A model generated the notes under the pieces. The model did not search any database. It worked only from the letters and a program-made list of their open reading frames with translations, and was not told the DNA's origin. This document shows positions 2,380 to 26,086 of a DNA stretch of 27,199 bases, piece by piece (position 1 is the first letter of the stretch; each line of letters starts with the position of its first letter). The translations under genes and the position numbers were made by a program. The stretch is from a virus, in IMG/VR virus record IMGVR_UViG_3300046327_000092, positions 1 through 27,199 of that record; one strand, 5' to 3'.

Positions 2380-3129
2380 ATGTTTGTAAGAGGCAGTGGA
2401 AGTGGCAATGAATACCGTAGAGTGGATAACTCATTCTATAGAGGAATTATCGTTAAGAACAATGATCCCGAAAAACTCAATAGGGTTAAAATATACATAC
2501 CAGAATTAACAAATCAACCATATGATGAATGGTTTGAAAAATTTGAAATATTTATATTAAAATCTCCCGGTGTAAATTCCAATCCCAAAACGGAATCAGA
2601 AAAAAAGAAAACCGGAGATTGGGAAGACTATGAAATTTTTGATGAAATTTGTAAAGGTATTCCATGGGCGGAACCATGTTTTCCATTATTCGGAGAATCC
2701 AATAATTTTAGGCTAAACAGGAATCTAGAAGATATATCAACAATATCTGATTGTAATTATGAAGATGGGTTTAGAATTATCGATAAAGATGCTCCAACAA
2801 TTCAAGATGGATCTTTCAGCCCAGCATTTTTATATGAAAATGAAGAAACTGTAATAGGAGATTCTTTCTCTTCTCCAACTGTTAATTTTTGTGTCAAATG
2901 TAATCCTTATTCCTTTTCATATAGACCATCAAAACACGTAAATAAAACGAAGGGGGTTATAGGAATTCCAGAAGTTGGAAGTAAAGTTTGGGTTTTTCAC
3001 TATGAAGGGGACTTGAATTTTCCTGTTTATTTTGGAGTTACCCAAGATTTTAGAAGCTTGACATTGCTCAACGATACAGACAATGAAAGTAAAATAGGTC
3101 CAGTGTATCCTAACGATTTCGAAAATTAA
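2380..3129 (+). CDS. Baseplate hub OB-fold protein, gp5 N-terminal type
   Basis: The protein shows the OB-fold signature of the gp5/VgrG/gpV hub family: YRGIIVKNNDPEKLNRVKIY near residue 20, and late in the protein GIPEVGSKVWVFHYEGDLNF followed by PVYFGV. In T4 this domain forms the collar that joins the spike to the hub below the tail tube. T4 gp5 fuses OB, lysozyme and beta-helix domains. Here the OB part stands alone, no lysozyme domain is seen, and the helix part is encoded by the next gene 3 bases downstream. An insert between the two OB motifs (residues about 60-190) is rich in charged residues. Assignment to the hub is confident; the split arrangement is seen directly. Confidence 0.85.
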   Translation: MFVRGSGSGNEYRRVDNSFYRGIIVKNNDPEKLNRVKIYIPELTNQPYDEWFEKFEIFILKSPGVNSNPKTESEKKKTGDWEDYEIFDEICKGIPWAEPCFPLFGESNNFRLNRNLEDISTISDCNYEDGFRIIDKDAPTIQDGSFSPAFLYENEETVIGDSFSSPTVNFCVKCNPYSFSYRPSKHVNKTKGVIGIPEVGSKVWVFHYEGDLNFPVYFGVTQDFRSLTLLNDTDNESKIGPVYPNDFEN

Positions 3130-3132
3130 AAT

Positions 3133-4725
3133 ATGGGATTAATATATAAAAACAGACTGATTATAAATCAGAGAGGGGGATCAATCGATATTGACAACAC
3201 TACCGATAAAGAGAAACTTAAATTGTCACATAGAAGTGGTTCAAATATAAATTTGACAAATGTGGTTAATTCCGAGTTAGCTACAAATAATAAGCAAACT
3301 TCTGTCATAAACGATCTTTTTCAAACTGTGGGTAAAGATAAAACCGAATTTGTAGCTAAAGACAATACTTTAAGAACGGGAGGAAACACTTATAATTTAA
3401 AGGGATTTATCGGGGATGAACAGTTAAAGGCTTTTGAAACATGGAGAGATATATTTCGACCAATATCAAAATTAAATTCCCAATTTAAAATTAAGAGAGG
3501 GGGTATTGGGGTTCCAAATGGGGAAGAAACTATAGAATCAGGAAATAGAGCAAGTAATCCAGTTGTTGGAAGCACTGTGTTCACTGTAGAAAATACCTTC
3601 AATGGTTATTCTGGTGTTCCCATTAGAAAATCGGATACGGATGAAGTGGTTACATTTGCCAAAGTTCCCGATTATAATAAAACAAAACCAGCAGAAACAA
3701 GACAAATATCTTCAGCTAATATAGAAAGTGCGGCGGGAGAATCTGGTTCTAATGCTCCCGGTGTCATATCCCAAGGAGCAGAGAAGAGTGCGGCATCTGA
3801 GAATGGTCTATGGGATATCAACTATGATGCCCAACGAATAGATTTAAAACTATTAGATATTCAAGAAGAAATTCAACCAATTGAACAACAAATGGGTGAT
3901 GGGGGTGATGAAATTCTCTTTACTAAAAGAAATAAATTTGAACAAGTAGGTGCCACGTTTAATGATTATCCATCTATTAGAATAGATAAAACTGGAAGAA
4001 GCCAACCATTTGAAATGGTTGTATCCAGCACGGGGGCATTTAAAAACCATGATGCGGTTCCACATATCGAAGAGATTGACAACTCATCTTTTTTTCCATG
4101 TGGAAATGATGATAAAATTATAGGCAATAGATATTCCAGAACAGTTGGTTCGGGTGGTATAAATTTCAAGACCACGGGATCTACGGAATTGGGAGGCACT
4201 ATACTTAAAGCTGGTTTCAATAGAATTCATCTAAATGCTTCGGATGGTATTCAAGTCGCGTCAGAGGAATTTATTGAACTTCAATCATTAAAAACTATAA
4301 CCCTAAGAACCAACAGACAAGTATATGTTGAGAGTTCATTAGGTGTAAAGGGTAATTTAATCGTTGGTGGGGGGATATACGTGGAAGGAGAACTATATTG
4401 TCATCACATTACAGCACCTTTGGAAGTTCATCAAACTCAAGACACTGTAGTAACAGGTAAATTCGCAACCGACACAGATAGAACTTTATTAATAGGGGAA
4501 GCACATATCGGAGACAGATATTATCCCGTATATGCCATCAAAAATGATGATTTAATCGTCAACTATCCGCATAGTCACCATCATAATGGTATTCCCATGA
4601 GATTGACCAGATCCAATTCCGATGTAAGAGAGTTCGCGGCCAATGAAAAGATCAATGAACATAATAATATTTCCCAATCTCTGCCACAAATTCATGAAAG
4701 AAAAATGGCAAATGAAATATTATAA
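3133..4725 (+). CDS. Baseplate central spike, gp5 C-terminal beta-helix type
   Basis: This 530-residue protein continues the gp5 module. An N-terminal region of polar beta-type sequence is followed by short repeats of alternating hydrophobic residues (about residues 340-450, for example GNLIVGGGIYVEGELY) typical of triple-stranded beta-helix spikes. Near the C terminus is PHSHHHNG, a histidine-rich tip motif; metal-binding HxH motifs are known at the tips of phage P2 and phi92 spikes, so iron binding here is a reasonable inference. It probably trimerises and pierces the outer membrane. It lies 3 bases after the OB gene and converges with the ClpP gene, overlapping it by 6 bases. Confidence 0.8.
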   Translation: MGLIYKNRLIINQRGGSIDIDNTTDKEKLKLSHRSGSNINLTNVVNSELATNNKQTSVINDLFQTVGKDKTEFVAKDNTLRTGGNTYNLKGFIGDEQLKAFETWRDIFRPISKLNSQFKIKRGGIGVPNGEETIESGNRASNPVVGSTVFTVENTFNGYSGVPIRKSDTDEVVTFAKVPDYNKTKPAETRQISSANIESAAGESGSNAPGVISQGAEKSAASENGLWDINYDAQRIDLKLLDIQEEIQPIEQQMGDGGDEILFTKRNKFEQVGATFNDYPSIRIDKTGRSQPFEMVVSSTGAFKNHDAVPHIEEIDNSSFFPCGNDDKIIGNRYSRTVGSGGINFKTTGSTELGGTILKAGFNRIHLNASDGIQVASEEFIELQSLKTITLRTNRQVYVESSLGVKGNLIVGGGIYVEGELYCHHITAPLEVHQTQDTVVTGKFATDTDRTLLIGEAHIGDRYYPVYAIKNDDLIVNYPHSHHHNGIPMRLTRSNSDVREFAANEKINEHNNISQSLPQIHERKMANEIL

Positions 4726-8739: not shown

Positions 8740-8746
8740 TATTTTG

Positions 8747-9397
8747 ATGAACAAAAATTATACACACATCGCAATGATAATCGACCGCAGCGGAAGCATG
8801 TCTTCCTGCTGGAAAGACGTTATGGGTGGTTACACCGAACTTGTAAAACAAAATAAGGAAGAACCCGGAAAATGCACATTTACTGTTGCTGCATTTGATA
8901 CCGAATATGAGCTATTAGAAGATTTCACTGATATTAAGGACGTTAAAGATGAACTTACTGTTACACCTAGAGGTGGAACTGCACTATTGGATGCTATTGG
9001 AAAGACTATTGTTACCGTAGGTGAGAATCTTGCTAAGATGAAAGAAAAGGATCGTCCTATGAAAGTAATGGTGGTAGTGCAAACCGATGGTGAAGAAAAT
9101 TCATCTAAAGAATTTAAAAAGGAAGATATTAAAAAACTTATCGAAGAACAAACCAATACTTATAAATGGCAATTTCAATTTATAGGAGCATCTTTAGCTT
9201 CTATAAATGAAGCCAGAAATTGGGGATTTGCTGCCTCAAATATGAGCACGTATAATACTACAAACTCAAACGCAACATTCTCTACACTTGGATTGAAGAT
9301 GAGATCTGCAAGATCCGCCAATACCATGGAACAATATTGTGCGTCCGTAGCATTTAGTGATGATGAAAAAACATTATTAAATTCTGATAAAATTTAA
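8747..9397 (+). CDS. VWA (von Willebrand factor A) domain protein
   Basis: The 216-residue protein is a single VWA domain with a complete metal-ion-dependent adhesion site: D13-R-S15-G-S17 near the N terminus, the threonine in RGGTALLDAIG about residue 78, and the aspartate in QTDGEEN about residue 115. Such domains bind a divalent cation and a protein ligand. In phages they occur as stand-alone late proteins of unsettled function. I start it at ATG 8747 rather than the in-frame TTG at 8744, because the ATG fits the promoter spacing used across the window. No membrane segment or signal peptide is present. Its partner is not apparent from the neighbours. Confidence 0.85.
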   Translation: MNKNYTHIAMIIDRSGSMSSCWKDVMGGYTELVKQNKEEPGKCTFTVAAFDTEYELLEDFTDIKDVKDELTVTPRGGTALLDAIGKTIVTVGENLAKMKEKDRPMKVMVVVQTDGEENSSKEFKKEDIKKLIEEQTNTYKWQFQFIGASLASINEARNWGFAASNMSTYNTTNSNATFSTLGLKMRSARSANTMEQYCASVAFSDDEKTLLNSDKI

Positions 9398-12254: not shown

Positions 12255-12326
12255 GCTGCGTTGGGCGAGTGGTTAGCCACGAGACTCTAAATCTCTTTTA
12301 CATGGGTTCGAATCCCATACGTTGTA
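12255..12326 (+). tRNA. Amber suppressor tRNA (CTA)
   Basis: D stem GGC/GCC; anticodon stem GAGA/TCTC with loop CTCTAAA gives CTA, which reads UAG. T arm ATGGG/CCCAT, variable loop 5 bases, A73, no CCA. The acceptor GCTGCGT/ACGTTGT is weak (one T-T mismatch and two G-T pairs), so the amino-acid identity is unclear. TAG ends only one intact gene in the window (18679) and one pseudogene (10579). Confidence 0.75.
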
Positions 12327-12327
12327 C

Positions 12328-17909: not shown

Positions 17910-17995
17910 ACCAAGATGCGTGAATGGTTGAAGCGAGCGGATTCCAAATCCGCCGAACGAAAGTTCCACTGTGGGTTCGAATCCTACTCTTGGTG
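17910..17995 (+). tRNA. Class II (serine-type) tRNA with CCA (Trp) anticodon
   Basis: Acceptor ACCAAGA/TCTTGGT perfect, D stem CGT/GCG with the serine-like loop GAATGGTTGAA, anticodon stem GCGGA/TCCGC with loop TTCCAAA (CCA). The variable arm is 17 bases (GAAC-GAAA-GTTC), T arm GTGGG/CCTAC, G73. Body, variable arm and discriminator are those of serine tRNA, but the anticodon reads UGG (Trp). It differs from the serine anticodon CGA by one base at position 35. Confidence 0.85.
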
Positions 17996-18000
17996 CATGA

Positions 18001-18230
18001 GATTATTAAGGATGTCGGCTTAGAAGCAGCCATCATTTAAAGAGTTACGGCATTGCCATGATGGTGCGATATGTCAGCCAGTTCGGTAACAGAACATACT
18101 GATGATGTGCCTGTGGATAAACAAGAGTCGTCGTAGGGTCATCAAGCCCAACCACTAGAGAACATAGGATAGTGGCGACAAGTAGGTTCCTAAGCCTCAA
18201 GTATTTGGCGTAACAGCACACTTTTTAATC
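18001..18230 (+). ncRNA. Split mimic of the 23S rRNA GTPase-associated centre (L11-binding domain)
   Basis: Bases 18009-18045 match 23S rRNA 1054-1090 (E. coli numbering) with one change inside helix 43 (U1061 to C). This covers the GGCTTAGAAGCAGCC hairpin with A1067 and the CATCATTTAAAGAGT strand (the GAGT ending as in Thermotoga-type rRNA). After a 162-base insert, 18208-18221 match 1091-1104 (GCGTAACAGC then ACAC; 13 of 14). The ends pair as rRNA helix 42 in the same register (G18010-C18221 = G1055-C1104), extended to 18001/18230 with two T-T mismatches. The insert folds into its own arms: TCAG/CTGA with GTTC/GAAC, and CCACTA/TAGTGG within GTCG/CGAC. The element lies between tRNA genes on one transcript. 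Confidence 0.85.
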
Positions 18231-18237
18231 TCACAAT

Positions 18238-18308
18238 GTTCCGTTGACAGATTGGTTATGTGAGTGATTGCAAATCACTTAAGGGGGATTCGATTTCCTC
18301 ACGGAACT
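18238..18308 (+). tRNA. tRNA-Cys (GCA)
   Basis: Acceptor GTTCCGT/ACGGAAC, D stem ACA/TGT, anticodon stem AGTGA/TCACT with loop TTGCAAA, T arm GGGGA/TCCTC, T73 (U73 is the Cys identity base), no CCA. Confidence 0.92.
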
Positions 18309-18328
18309 CAGAAAACTAATATAAAATT

Positions 18329-18679
18329 ATGGAATATCCACAAGCTTACTGTGAAAAATGGAGAATATCGAGAAAACCACATAAATGTTGTGAGTGTGGT
18401 GGAATTATCTTTTATAAAGAACGATATCACTATTGTTCTGGAGTATGGGATGGTCAGGGACAATCATATAAAACATGTGTAGATTGTAATGAATTTCGCA
18501 ATCTGATAAATTCTACCAACTCATATGAGGATGGTGCCGCTCTTGGAGAATTAAGAGAATATATAATGTCTGATTATTTTCTTCCAGACATTACCAAATT
18601 TGTATCGATCTGGGATAAGCGTGGTGTGTTTGTCAGACCCAAAATTAGGGAATGGATAAGAAGAGGAAAAATTATTTAG
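18329..18679 (+). CDS. Small zinc-binding phage protein, 116 aa
   Basis: Residues about 19-52 hold four well-spaced cysteines: HKCCECGG and, 25 residues on, TCVDCNEF, with YHYCSGVWDG in between. This treble-clef-like zinc arrangement followed by a helical tail is common in phage hypothetical proteins, and I know no function for it. It is the only intact gene here that ends in TAG, notable because the window encodes a tRNA reading UAG; readthrough would add 9 codons up to a second TAG and then 5 more before TAA. It converges with the endolysin gene and overlaps it by 8 bases. Confidence 0.72.
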   Translation: MEYPQAYCEKWRISRKPHKCCECGGIIFYKERYHYCSGVWDGQGQSYKTCVDCNEFRNLINSTNSYEDGAALGELREYIMSDYFLPDITKFVSIWDKRGVFVRPKIREWIRRGKII

Positions 18680-24274: not shown

Positions 24275-24574
24275 ATGACCGAGAGAGTAAATTGGAATGA
24301 GCCATATGATATTCTTATAACAAGACCTAGTAAATTTTCGAATCCTTATTCACATAAGGAAAATACTCTAGCGTTATATAAAACAAATTCTCGAAAAGAG
24401 TCTGTAGAAAAGTTTAAAGAATATTTTTATAGTAATAAAGAGTTACAGGAAGCATGTGAAGAACTTCGTGGAAAACGAATAGCTTGTGTTTGCACTAGAA
24501 AAGAATCCTGTCACGGTGACATTATTGTTGACTTTTTAGAAAATCGTCCTAAGATAAATTTAGAAGAGTTATGA
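24275..24574 (+). CDS. DUF4326 protein
   Basis: The 99-residue protein matches DUF4326: YDILITRPSKFSNPYSH near the start, a central helix, LRGKRIACVCTRKESCHGD and IIVDFL. The CxC...CHGD cluster probably binds metal. Small proteins of this family are common in phages and plasmids, and their function is unsettled. The start is exactly at the distance set by the promoter, and the gene converges with the CCA-adding enzyme gene with a 6-base overlap. Confidence 0.85.
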   Translation: MTERVNWNEPYDILITRPSKFSNPYSHKENTLALYKTNSRKESVEKFKEYFYSNKELQEACEELRGKRIACVCTRKESCHGDIIVDFLENRPKINLEEL

Positions 24575-26059
24575 TTTAGGAACCATCTGTTTAGCTTTCT
24601 TATATGCCATTTGTTCCGTGACTTCCTTGCTATTCAATAGCATTTCTGCCACCCAATCCTGTATCTTAGGAAGATACTTTCCTATTTGGGTTCTATCGGT
24701 TTGAAACTGTGGAAACCATTGCATCATTTTATTACCATTAATAACTACGGATATTTGTTTTTTCAATTCATCTGCTCCACCGGGAACGGTAGCCAGTTTA
24801 GCTTCTGCTCTCTCAATCTTATCTAAGAACGCTTGTTTATTAAACAAACCGGGACCACGGGAAGCTTCATCACAATATCCTACAGCTTTAATAGTTTCCC
24901 AAGCGGGATTGTGTATAATACGTCTCAAAACTTTAAGACTTAACTTATCAAGTCCATGTATATACATATGATTTGCAACCGCAGCTAGTATATTTTTTTT
25001 ATCATCTGGACCCAACTTGGCAAAACGCAATCTCTTGAAAATATTTTCAACGATGGGAACTCCTGCTGCTTCATGAGCATGATAATTACTAAACCCGTTT
25101 GGTTTAGTTCCTCTTGTGGTTGCTTTTCCAAAATCATGAAACATTACCGCTAAATTGATAACGGGGTCACTATATGGTGAAGCTTTTAGACATTCATGAA
25201 TATGTCCTAGAACTTGGGAATCACCTTCCGGGTGATGTGCAGGATCATGATCAAATCCTTCCATATCTGTAAATTCTGGAAGTATGTCATGTAAAATTCC
25301 AGCATCTTGTAATTTATATAAAAAGTTGGATAACGTTCTACCGGACTTAGCAGCTTTATACATTTCTTGTGAAATGCTTTCTTGAGATATCAAATTGGGA
25401 TTTAATAACAAATGTTTTAATTCCTTAGCAGCATTTAGAGTTTCTGGTTCGATATCAAAATCCATTTTAGCGGCGAAACGGAACACACGGAGTAATCTAG
25501 TGGCATCTTCCTTGAAACGCTCCCTAGCGTCTCCTACGGCTCGGATTAGCCCATTCTGTAGATCTTGTAATCCCCCTTGGTAATCAACGATCCTTCCACT
25601 ATGATCCAATCCAAAACTGTTGATCGTTATATCCCTTCTTTTGGTATCGGTTTCAAAACTGTCCACTTCGGTTGATACATTGCTCTGTCTTCCCATTGCG
25701 GTTTGGGAATCTTCCCTAAACTTGGCAAGATCGAATGCATAATCTCCATATAGAATTGTATACACGGGCTGTGTATCGTTTTTACTTATATTTCTCAATT
25801 CAAAATGTTTTGATAGATCTTCAAATGGAATATTTGTAGCCATATCAACATCATCAATAGAATTTCCCATAAGCAAATCCCTTGGGACTCCTCCCACAAT
25901 ATAAATCTCTCCTGTTGGAAAAAGATCAACTATTTTATTCATTAGGTCTAATCCAACACGCAATTCTTCTGATGATGTCAACGCCTGTTCCCATTTGTCG
26001 GAAAAATCATCTAATTGATAATTTACGCTTTCTTGAAAGAATTTGGAGAATGTTATCAT
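24569..26059 (-). CDS. cca: CCA-adding enzyme / tRNA nucleotidyltransferase, class II, with HD domain
   Basis: The 496-residue protein has the class II nucleotidyltransferase head: IVGGVPRDLLMG, DDVDMAT (metal aspartates), TDTKRRDITINSFGLD, GRIVDYQGGLQDL and the EDATRLLRVFRF motif that reads ATP and CTP. A C-terminal HD phosphohydrolase domain follows (HIHE, then VMFHDFGKATTR), as in E. coli Cca. It adds or repairs CCA at tRNA 3' ends. That fits this window, where most tRNAs lack an encoded CCA. It could also act as a poly(A) polymerase; the two are hard to tell apart by eye. ATG 26059 is 5 bases after a late promoter. Confidence 0.88.
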   Translation of the reverse strand: MITFSKFFQESVNYQLDDFSDKWEQALTSSEELRVGLDLMNKIVDLFPTGEIYIVGGVPRDLLMGNSIDDVDMATNIPFEDLSKHFELRNISKNDTQPVYTILYGDYAFDLAKFREDSQTAMGRQSNVSTEVDSFETDTKRRDITINSFGLDHSGRIVDYQGGLQDLQNGLIRAVGDARERFKEDATRLLRVFRFAAKMDFDIEPETLNAAKELKHLLLNPNLISQESISQEMYKAAKSGRTLSNFLYKLQDAGILHDILPEFTDMEGFDHDPAHHPEGDSQVLGHIHECLKASPYSDPVINLAVMFHDFGKATTRGTKPNGFSNYHAHEAAGVPIVENIFKRLRFAKLGPDDKKNILAAVANHMYIHGLDKLSLKVLRRIIHNPAWETIKAVGYCDEASRGPGLFNKQAFLDKIERAEAKLATVPGGADELKKQISVVINGNKMMQWFPQFQTDRTQIGKYLPKIQDWVAEMLLNSKEVTEQMAYKKAKQMVPKS

Positions 26060-26064
26060 GGTAA

Positions 26065-26071
26065 TATTTAG
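26065..26071 (-). promoter_or_regulatory. Late promoter CTAAATA
   Basis: Minus strand CTAAATA-N5-ATG (26059); back to back with the + strand element at 26080. Confidence 0.72.
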
Positions 26072-26079
26072 ATAAATCA

Positions 26080-26086
26080 TTAAATA
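26080..26086 (+). promoter_or_regulatory. Late promoter TTAAATA
   Basis: TTAAATA-N5-ATG (26092). Confidence 0.7.

Follow-up and report, generated by a model that had tools for sequence, protein, structure and literature searches.

We examined a 27,199-base virus record (IMGVR_UViG_3300046327_000092, analysed over its whole length and hereafter called the window), in which ARAGORN detected 19 tRNAs. Ten window proteins were scanned, among them a major head protein, a ribonucleotide reductase, a MazG-like protein and a tRNA nucleotidyltransferase (phrog_2244; 24572-26080, minus strand), the last of which lies some 6 kb from the tRNA cluster. The cluster also includes a tRNA with the anticodon CTA (12255-12327), which ARAGORN labels as Pyl and which may be an amber suppressor, and a plus-strand ORF at 8744-9397 resembles, by eye, a von Willebrand A-domain protein with the motif IIDRSGSM. 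The gap between tRNA-Trp and tRNA-Cys (17998-18233) is filled by an element that carries a copy of the GTPase-associated centre (GAC) of 23S rRNA, split into two halves by an inserted arm (Table 1).

Table 1. Features of the split element and of the tRNA genes on either side of it, in window coordinates.
Feature	Position	Strand	Remarks
tRNA-Trp(CCA)	17910..17996	+	ARAGORN; Rfam RF00005; directly upstream of the element
Helix-42 equivalent, 5' strand	17998..18010	+	Begins directly after tRNA-Trp; partner is 18221-18233
GAC mimic, 5' half	18010..18045	+	E. coli 23S 1055-1090
Inserted arm, 158 nt	18046..18203	+	Sits between 1090 and 1091
UUUG linker, from the arm to G1091	18204..18207	+	Missing from both rRNA loci read (L025, L030)
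GAC mimic, 3' half	18208..18221	+	E. coli 1091-1104
Helix-42 equivalent, 3' strand	18221..18233	+	Stops 4 nt short of tRNA-Cys
tRNA-Cys(GCA)	18238..18309	+	ARAGORN; directly downstream of the element

The original prediction had recognised the L11/thiostrepton-binding region in 37 bases with one change, and this held: positions 18009-18045 (AGGATGTCGGCTTAGAAGCAGCCATCATTTAAAGAGT) were 97.3% identical over 37 nt to true Paenibacillus 23S rRNA, taken from a locus of contiguous rRNA, with one change. Against the E. coli-type sequence, that of L025 included, the differences fell at 1061, 1089 and 1090. The 3' part of the domain, GCGTAACAGCACAC at 18208-18221, starts 162 nt after 18045, and direct reading confirmed its predicted reappearance there. 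In E. coli numbering, which we take to be 18010 = G1055, 18045 = U1090 and 18208-18221 = 1091-1104, and which agrees with the alignment of two true rRNA loci (L025 and L030), the 5' half (18010-18045) includes helix 43, the 1082-1086 loop, G1087 and A1088, and the 3' half comprises the helix-44 hairpin GC-GUAACA-GC followed by A1101, C1102, A1103 and C1104. All the residues said to be kept were found in place (U1060 at 18015, A1067 at 18022, A1088 at 18043, C1092-G1099 at 18209-18216 and A1095 at 18212), and A1096 is retained together with A1067 and A1095. Position 1101 is changed from U to A and pairs with U1090. The pairing of the two ends (TGAGATTATTAAG / CTTTTTAATCTCA) in helix 42 was better than the eight pairs first claimed: 11 positions form Watson-Crick pairs and two are U-U mismatches. 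The arm is closed in the window by the pairs U18046-A18203, A18047-U18202 and C18048-G18201.

Rfam cmscan of the window reported LSU_rRNA_bacteria at 18009-18054 with 21.5 bits (E 7.3e-5), which does not reach the gathering score of 50 of RF02541, and at a permissive E-value the only match besides LSU was snoU13, on the opposite strand (E 9.6). The covariance model R1 scored the 5' half of the window at 59.7 bits (E 3.2e-13), a value that is not independent because the training relatives of R1 include an identical 5' half. A continuous helix 44 and the adjoining 23S domains are absent, with the halves 162 nt apart and tRNAs flanking the element. The minimum-free-energy (MFE) fold of the window element was no better than that of shuffled sequences (z -0.59; 49 of 200 shuffles folded equally well), and helix 43 was missing from it; the structure is therefore supported by comparison and not by thermodynamics. 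A 40,471-base IMG/VR contig (L024) has an element that matches that of the window exactly in core, arm and 3' half.

A 23-letter pattern of the 5' half retrieved 28 viral contigs, all of which were read: 27 contained the split form and one (L025) a continuous 23S rRNA. In the 27 split contigs, which had been retrieved through the 5' pattern alone, the 3' half lay 58-248 nt past that pattern, position 1101 was A, and a UUUG or UUUA linker preceded the 3' half in every case (27/27). These contigs bear on the possibility that the element is a captured rRNA fragment, a pseudogene or an assembly chimera, as the 36-37 nt that it has in common with rRNA could suggest; a host rRNA chimera was one of the outcomes that the original prediction had named as fatal to itself. 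We regard this explanation as refuted, since the joint, the position of the arm, the linker and A1101 are common to 27 of the 28 contigs and to complete genomes of cultured phages, and the covariation reported below is strong. What had been proposed as a split phage copy, whose helix 44 is broken by a separate arm and which is distinct from a simple rRNA fragment, was thus upheld. An intron also seems unlikely from the sequences, because some arms measure no more than 37-45 nt and because the linker together with A1101 appears to form a closed junction. We likewise rejected the arm as another piece of rRNA: the longest exact matches of the arms to the 13.7-kb rRNA-bearing L025 were like those of shuffled arms, with the exception of one 17-mer of the L095 arm that occurs in L025 away from the GAC.

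The search of viral contigs with a 3'-half pattern returned at least 120 rows. Among the matches listed, and with the named-phage copies and the window copy counted, there were 139 3'-half places, 131 of which had a 5' half: 107 had the canonical 36-nt form, corresponding to 88 distinct elements, and a further 24 had a variant form recognised by R1 (E up to 0.05). The 3'-half places in L057, L068, L107 and L121 were cut by, or lay near, a contig edge; no 5' half was found beside the 3'-half matches in L113, L114, L122 and L123, which are probably due to chance. Twelve cultured phages carry the element, namely XaC1, GAP32, CBB, XacN1, 4_4572, pf16, UNO-G1W1, Astolliot, Milchi, XbC2, Kaldavass and Serratia BF. 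The 3' pattern, run over the full length of 30 carrier records, matched 27 of them (26 once and one twice); the three that were missed differ from it at 1095 (XaC1) or in the linker (L013 and L020). The record of L100, a 193-kb virus, showed two 3'-half matches, at 18381 and 192067. In a one-genome-per-species bacterial collection, 16 loci matched a 19-letter pattern, and for 13 of them R1 placed a 5' half upstream of the match, in the same orientation. The bacterial-genome loci L154 and L156 had phage-type neighbours, and downstream of the element in L154 (a Flintibacter muris contig) we observed a kinase-phosphatase-RNA ligase fusion of the RNA repair type (phrog_8238; 2522-4711). In L160 (3216-5066), on a Propionibacterium MAG contig, the halves are 1.9 kb apart and enclose a reading frame that resembles an IS transposase by eye.

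The same split element, with a covarying helix 42 and insert stem, was therefore found in other phages, where the original prediction had proposed that it be sought. In an alignment of 50 of the 79 element pieces, 93.4% of 1300 cells were paired and both sides had changed in 19 of the 26 pairs; for helix 1, the helix-42 equivalent, this was the case in 8 of 9 pairs. The covariation score was 0.600 vs 0.143 in shuffles, none of which reached 0.600 (0/500), and vs at most 0.184 in slid controls. Across the 88 distinct elements, the closing pair of the arm was always kept, as GC, AU, UA, GU or CG, and the second and third arm pairs were kept in 85 and 80 of them, respectively. The pairs 1058-1080 (six pair types), 1064-1074 and U1060-A1088 (87 UA, 1 UG) were also kept in 88/88, and the 1082-1086 pair (UA, CG, AU) in 84/88. 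U1090 paired with position 1101 in all 88, where A was found in 86 (UA) and G in 2 (UG); the search patterns themselves account for part of the conservation of the 3' half. The helix-42 equivalent was kept in 65-88 of 88 over the eight pairs past G1055-C1104 and in at most 40 beyond them, and the non-standard 1061-1070 contact was variable, with a standard pair in 54/88. Helix 43 has been rebuilt in some phages (e.g. GGATTAATGGCGTCC), and the phage copy therefore evolves apart from rRNA. With the secondary and tertiary pairs of the GAC fold of the 1055-1104 domain present in the family, we are almost certain that the element is a conserved, functional phage RNA with that fold.

Compared to helices 42-44 of 23S rRNA (part of RF02541), the phage RNA shares helix 43, the 1057-1059/1079-1081 pairs, U1060-A1088, the 1082-1086 pair, G1087-C1102, and the helix-44 hairpin and its loop. 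It differs in standing alone, in a helix 42 of approximately 8 bp of free sequence, in the arm between 1090 and 1091, the UUUG linker and the change of U1101 to A, in the relaxation of 1067, 1095 and 1096, and in a score below the Rfam gathering level. Arm length ranged from 45 to 334 nt in the 88 distinct elements (parser limit 345), and the arms differed between phages: a module formed by CACC, a hairpin and UAAGG was shared near the 3' end by 19 of the 88, and other arms had different words in common. Arm folding gave a median z of -0.86 against single-base shuffles, with 22 of 88 (25%) below -2. A second insertion point was observed in L093, L096, L111, L118, L136 and L139, with an extra hairpin placed after A1077, where helix 43 gives way to the 1082-1086 turn; several of the variant 5' halves recognised by R1 have such a hairpin.

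We then compared the residues that face translation factors in the ribosome, which include 1095-1096 of the rRNA. A1067 and A1095 were retained in most phage copies. Position 1067 was A in 75 of the 88 elements (13 deviate) and position 1096 was A in 62 (26 deviate); a scan for bases other than A at 1095 found 41 contigs, 23 of which (16 distinct) had a helix-43 motif upstream, and XaC1 has G at 1095. In rRNA, 1067-1068 was AG in 78 of 78 copies from the 33 matching genomes among 100 Pseudomonadota, the only group sampled, with a pattern that left 1067-1068 free; the phage elements that matched the same pattern (n=54) had 45 AG, 5 AA and 4 GG. Positions 1095-1096 were AA in 46 of 46 rRNA copies, from the 26 matching genomes among 60 of those Pseudomonadota. 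The invariance of A1067, A1095 and A1096 in the sampled rRNA thus does not extend to the phage family.

These counts weigh on the decoy for translational GTPases or thiopeptides that the original prediction had put forward. The full GAC fold and the presence of A1067, A1095 and A1096 in the window copy are in line with such a decoy, yet 1067 deviates in 13 of 88 elements, 1096 in 26 of 88 and 1095 in 23 loci (16 distinct), at the very residues that are invariant in the sampled Pseudomonadota rRNA (78/78 and 46/46), and we consider it quite improbable. Judged by this pattern, the GTPase/thiopeptide surface may not be what selection holds most tightly; the core seems to be held. Because 1067, 1095 and 1096 are relaxed and the core is kept, uL11 or another reader of the core is favoured over a decoy for GTPases or thiopeptides. 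According to PMC5829649, A1067 is the main determinant of thiostrepton resistance and is touched by the A/R tRNA of RelA complexes; since this residue varies in phages, a direct decoy for RelA or tRNA is not suggested.

The element is closely associated with tRNA genes. At the 88 distinct loci, ARAGORN found a tRNA in the stretch examined at 62; a same-strand tRNA lay within 300 nt at 50 loci and within 60 nt at 42, and an opposite-strand tRNA was present at 0 of 88 within that stretch (the strand reading was verified on three loci). In eight annotated phages the element is intergenic, except for one 108-nt reverse-strand hypothetical gene in UNO-G1W1; Milchi has a similar short gene call on the reverse strand. 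In pf16, recorded from the host Pseudomonas putida PpG1, the flanking genes are tRNA-Asn and tRNA-Pro. The gap between tRNA-Trp and tRNA-Arg measures 213 nt with the element in UNO-G1W1 and 9 nt without it in the relative 16Q, and the R1 search gave no match in 16Q, PPSC2 or PE09, which makes the element an accessory cassette of tRNA arrays. The original prediction would have counted related phages without the element against itself; such phages do occur (16Q vs UNO-G1W1), but they point to an accessory cassette and not to an artefact. A terminator-like hairpin followed 9 of the 88 elements vs 16 of 440 random windows (clear by eye in XacN1, L007 and L115), and a -10-like box preceded 20 of the 88 vs 69 of the 440. 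Terminator and promoter signals are thus weak.

No protein family was constant among the neighbours within 3.5 kb across the 88 loci: the largest cluster covered 8 of the 88 and looks like an antisense frame over the element and a tRNA, and the next covered 5. A search for the L11 gene found it in 0 of 30 element-bearing records (the control was detected in 14/14), and any L11 would therefore be the host's. Leaders of ribosomal-protein operons that mimic rRNA are an established class, in which an RNA outside the ribosome imitates the site of a ribosomal protein as the phage RNA does, and a cis-regulatory leader of this kind could be imagined here. This idea is largely refuted and highly improbable: the phage RNA lacks a conserved downstream gene or neighbour protein in the 88 loci, many copies lie between two tRNAs, and no position upstream of a ribosomal-protein gene emerged, L11 being the only ribosomal-protein family sought (0/30).

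The tRNA setting is also the starting point of the main rival to uL11 capture, namely that the RNA is a decoy for an enzyme directed against the GAC by a host defence or a competitor (an ADP-ribosyltransferase, a nuclease or a methyltransferase). The tRNA cluster would then be a translation counter-defence island and the RNA its rRNA member. PMC10264068 argues that phage tRNAs act against host defences aimed at tRNAs, and the review PMC9990079 describes Tre23, which ADP-ribosylates the GTPase-associated site of 23S rRNA; the location of the element in tRNA arrays and its variable presence among related phages agree with such a role. Nevertheless, the most exposed loop residues (1067, 1095, 1096 and 1097) are among the variable ones and it is the core that is kept, which leaves the enzyme decoy an unlikely explanation.

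A further explanation concerns a protein partner: the RNA could be a guide or scaffold of a phage Ro60-like (DUF2828/TROVE-like) protein, an analogue of Y RNA with an rRNA-like effector module. Of 40 records that carry the element, 15 had DUF2828 and 2 had TROVE; in Astolliot, Milchi, 4_4572 and the record of L103 the gene was at most approximately 5 kb away from the element. None of 24 control records, mostly small contigs, gave a DUF2828 match. These proportions (15/40 and 2/40) are not the consistent pairing with a Ro/TROVE-like gene that is expected of a Y RNA, DUF2828 gave no match in the element carriers XacN1, pf16 and UNO-G1W1, and 681 phage records match the DUF2828 protein. With stricter filters the element was found in 3 and missing from 8 of 11 fetched records, 9 of which have the DUF2828 protein and 2 of which (Staphylococcus phage K and Listeria phage A511) were merely expected to have it; A511, among the 8 without the element, gave an R1 match of 14.1 bits (E 0.28). 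Given the 681 matching records and the 8 of 11 lacking the element, the Ro-like protein is not a fixed partner, and we hold this explanation to be very improbable. DUF2828/DUF7788 Ro-like proteins were also observed at L156 (2070-3590), L210 (253-1713, minus strand) and L211 (738-2249).

The shape kept by evolution suggests that the RNA probably captures a piece of the host translation machinery. Among the readings listed in the original prediction, capture of L11 is the one that we would prefer on the sequences at hand, so that its description of a split GAC copy with an arm stands and its decoy for GTPases and thiopeptides does not. Binding of uL11 by the RNA appears somewhat likelier than its opposite. 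The best explanation that we can offer, held with as much doubt as belief, is that of a stand-alone structured phage RNA whose copy of the L11-binding domain captures host uL11. The element would be a stand-alone RNA gene of large phages, presumably transcribed, whose transcript would fold as an accurate, independently evolving L11-binding domain of 23S rRNA with an arm on helix 44 that is specific to phages. Where the element lies in a tRNA array, tRNA processing would probably free its ends, and outside such arrays it may be its own unit. The folded core could then capture host uL11, either free or exchanged from 50S subunits, and the captured protein would be sequestered or tethered to the arm, which may alter processes that depend on L11 in the infected cell, among them the activation of RelA and translation-factor turnover.

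Most cellular uL11 sits on ribosomes, and an abundant RNA would therefore be needed for an effect. PMC7873864 describes a partial dependence of RelA function on L11; that the phage RNA blunts RelA is nonetheless doubtful. The helix-42 equivalent appears too short and variable, and an L10-L12 site is therefore not suggested. For the broader proposal, a phage-wide class of trans-acting rRNA-domain mimics that would seize host uL11 or another reader of the GAC core and reprogramme the stringent response or factor turnover, we find belief and disbelief equally balanced.

ROOL and GOLLD are large structured RNAs of unknown role, some of them in phages and there near tRNAs; the phage GAC RNA is smaller, has an rRNA-domain core and showed no Rfam match to them. 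The stable RNAs C and D of T4 (rnaC, rnaD) are similar in being small stable RNA genes that end a phage tRNA cluster, but they lack a GAC core: the best match to a 15-letter motif there was 11/15, R1 gave no match in T4, and they are not related to the phage GAC RNA. Rfam 15 contained no matching family for the phage RNA, with only tRNA reported at gathering level in the window and 20 related loci, and the carrier phage records examined had no RNA annotation of the element. We found no earlier description of a phage GAC RNA in open-licence PMC papers, a search that could miss one published elsewhere. Within that scope, a self-standing phage RNA that covaries and is modelled on a functional domain of the ribosome seems new as a kind.

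If true, this widespread RNA family means that viruses carry a ribosomal centre in apparent working shape, and it offers a handle on how phages may act upon host translation and stringent control. It also provides a natural collection of GAC sequences that covary outside the constraints of the ribosome, and with these L11 binding could be separated from factor binding. Finally, sequence resembling rRNA in a phage contig need not be contamination. True 23S rRNA was observed in L030, a record filed as the genome of Paenibacillus phage Pd_22F, and several other short 'phage' records hold 23S rRNA by annotation or match only; in all of these the rRNA is likely host sequence.
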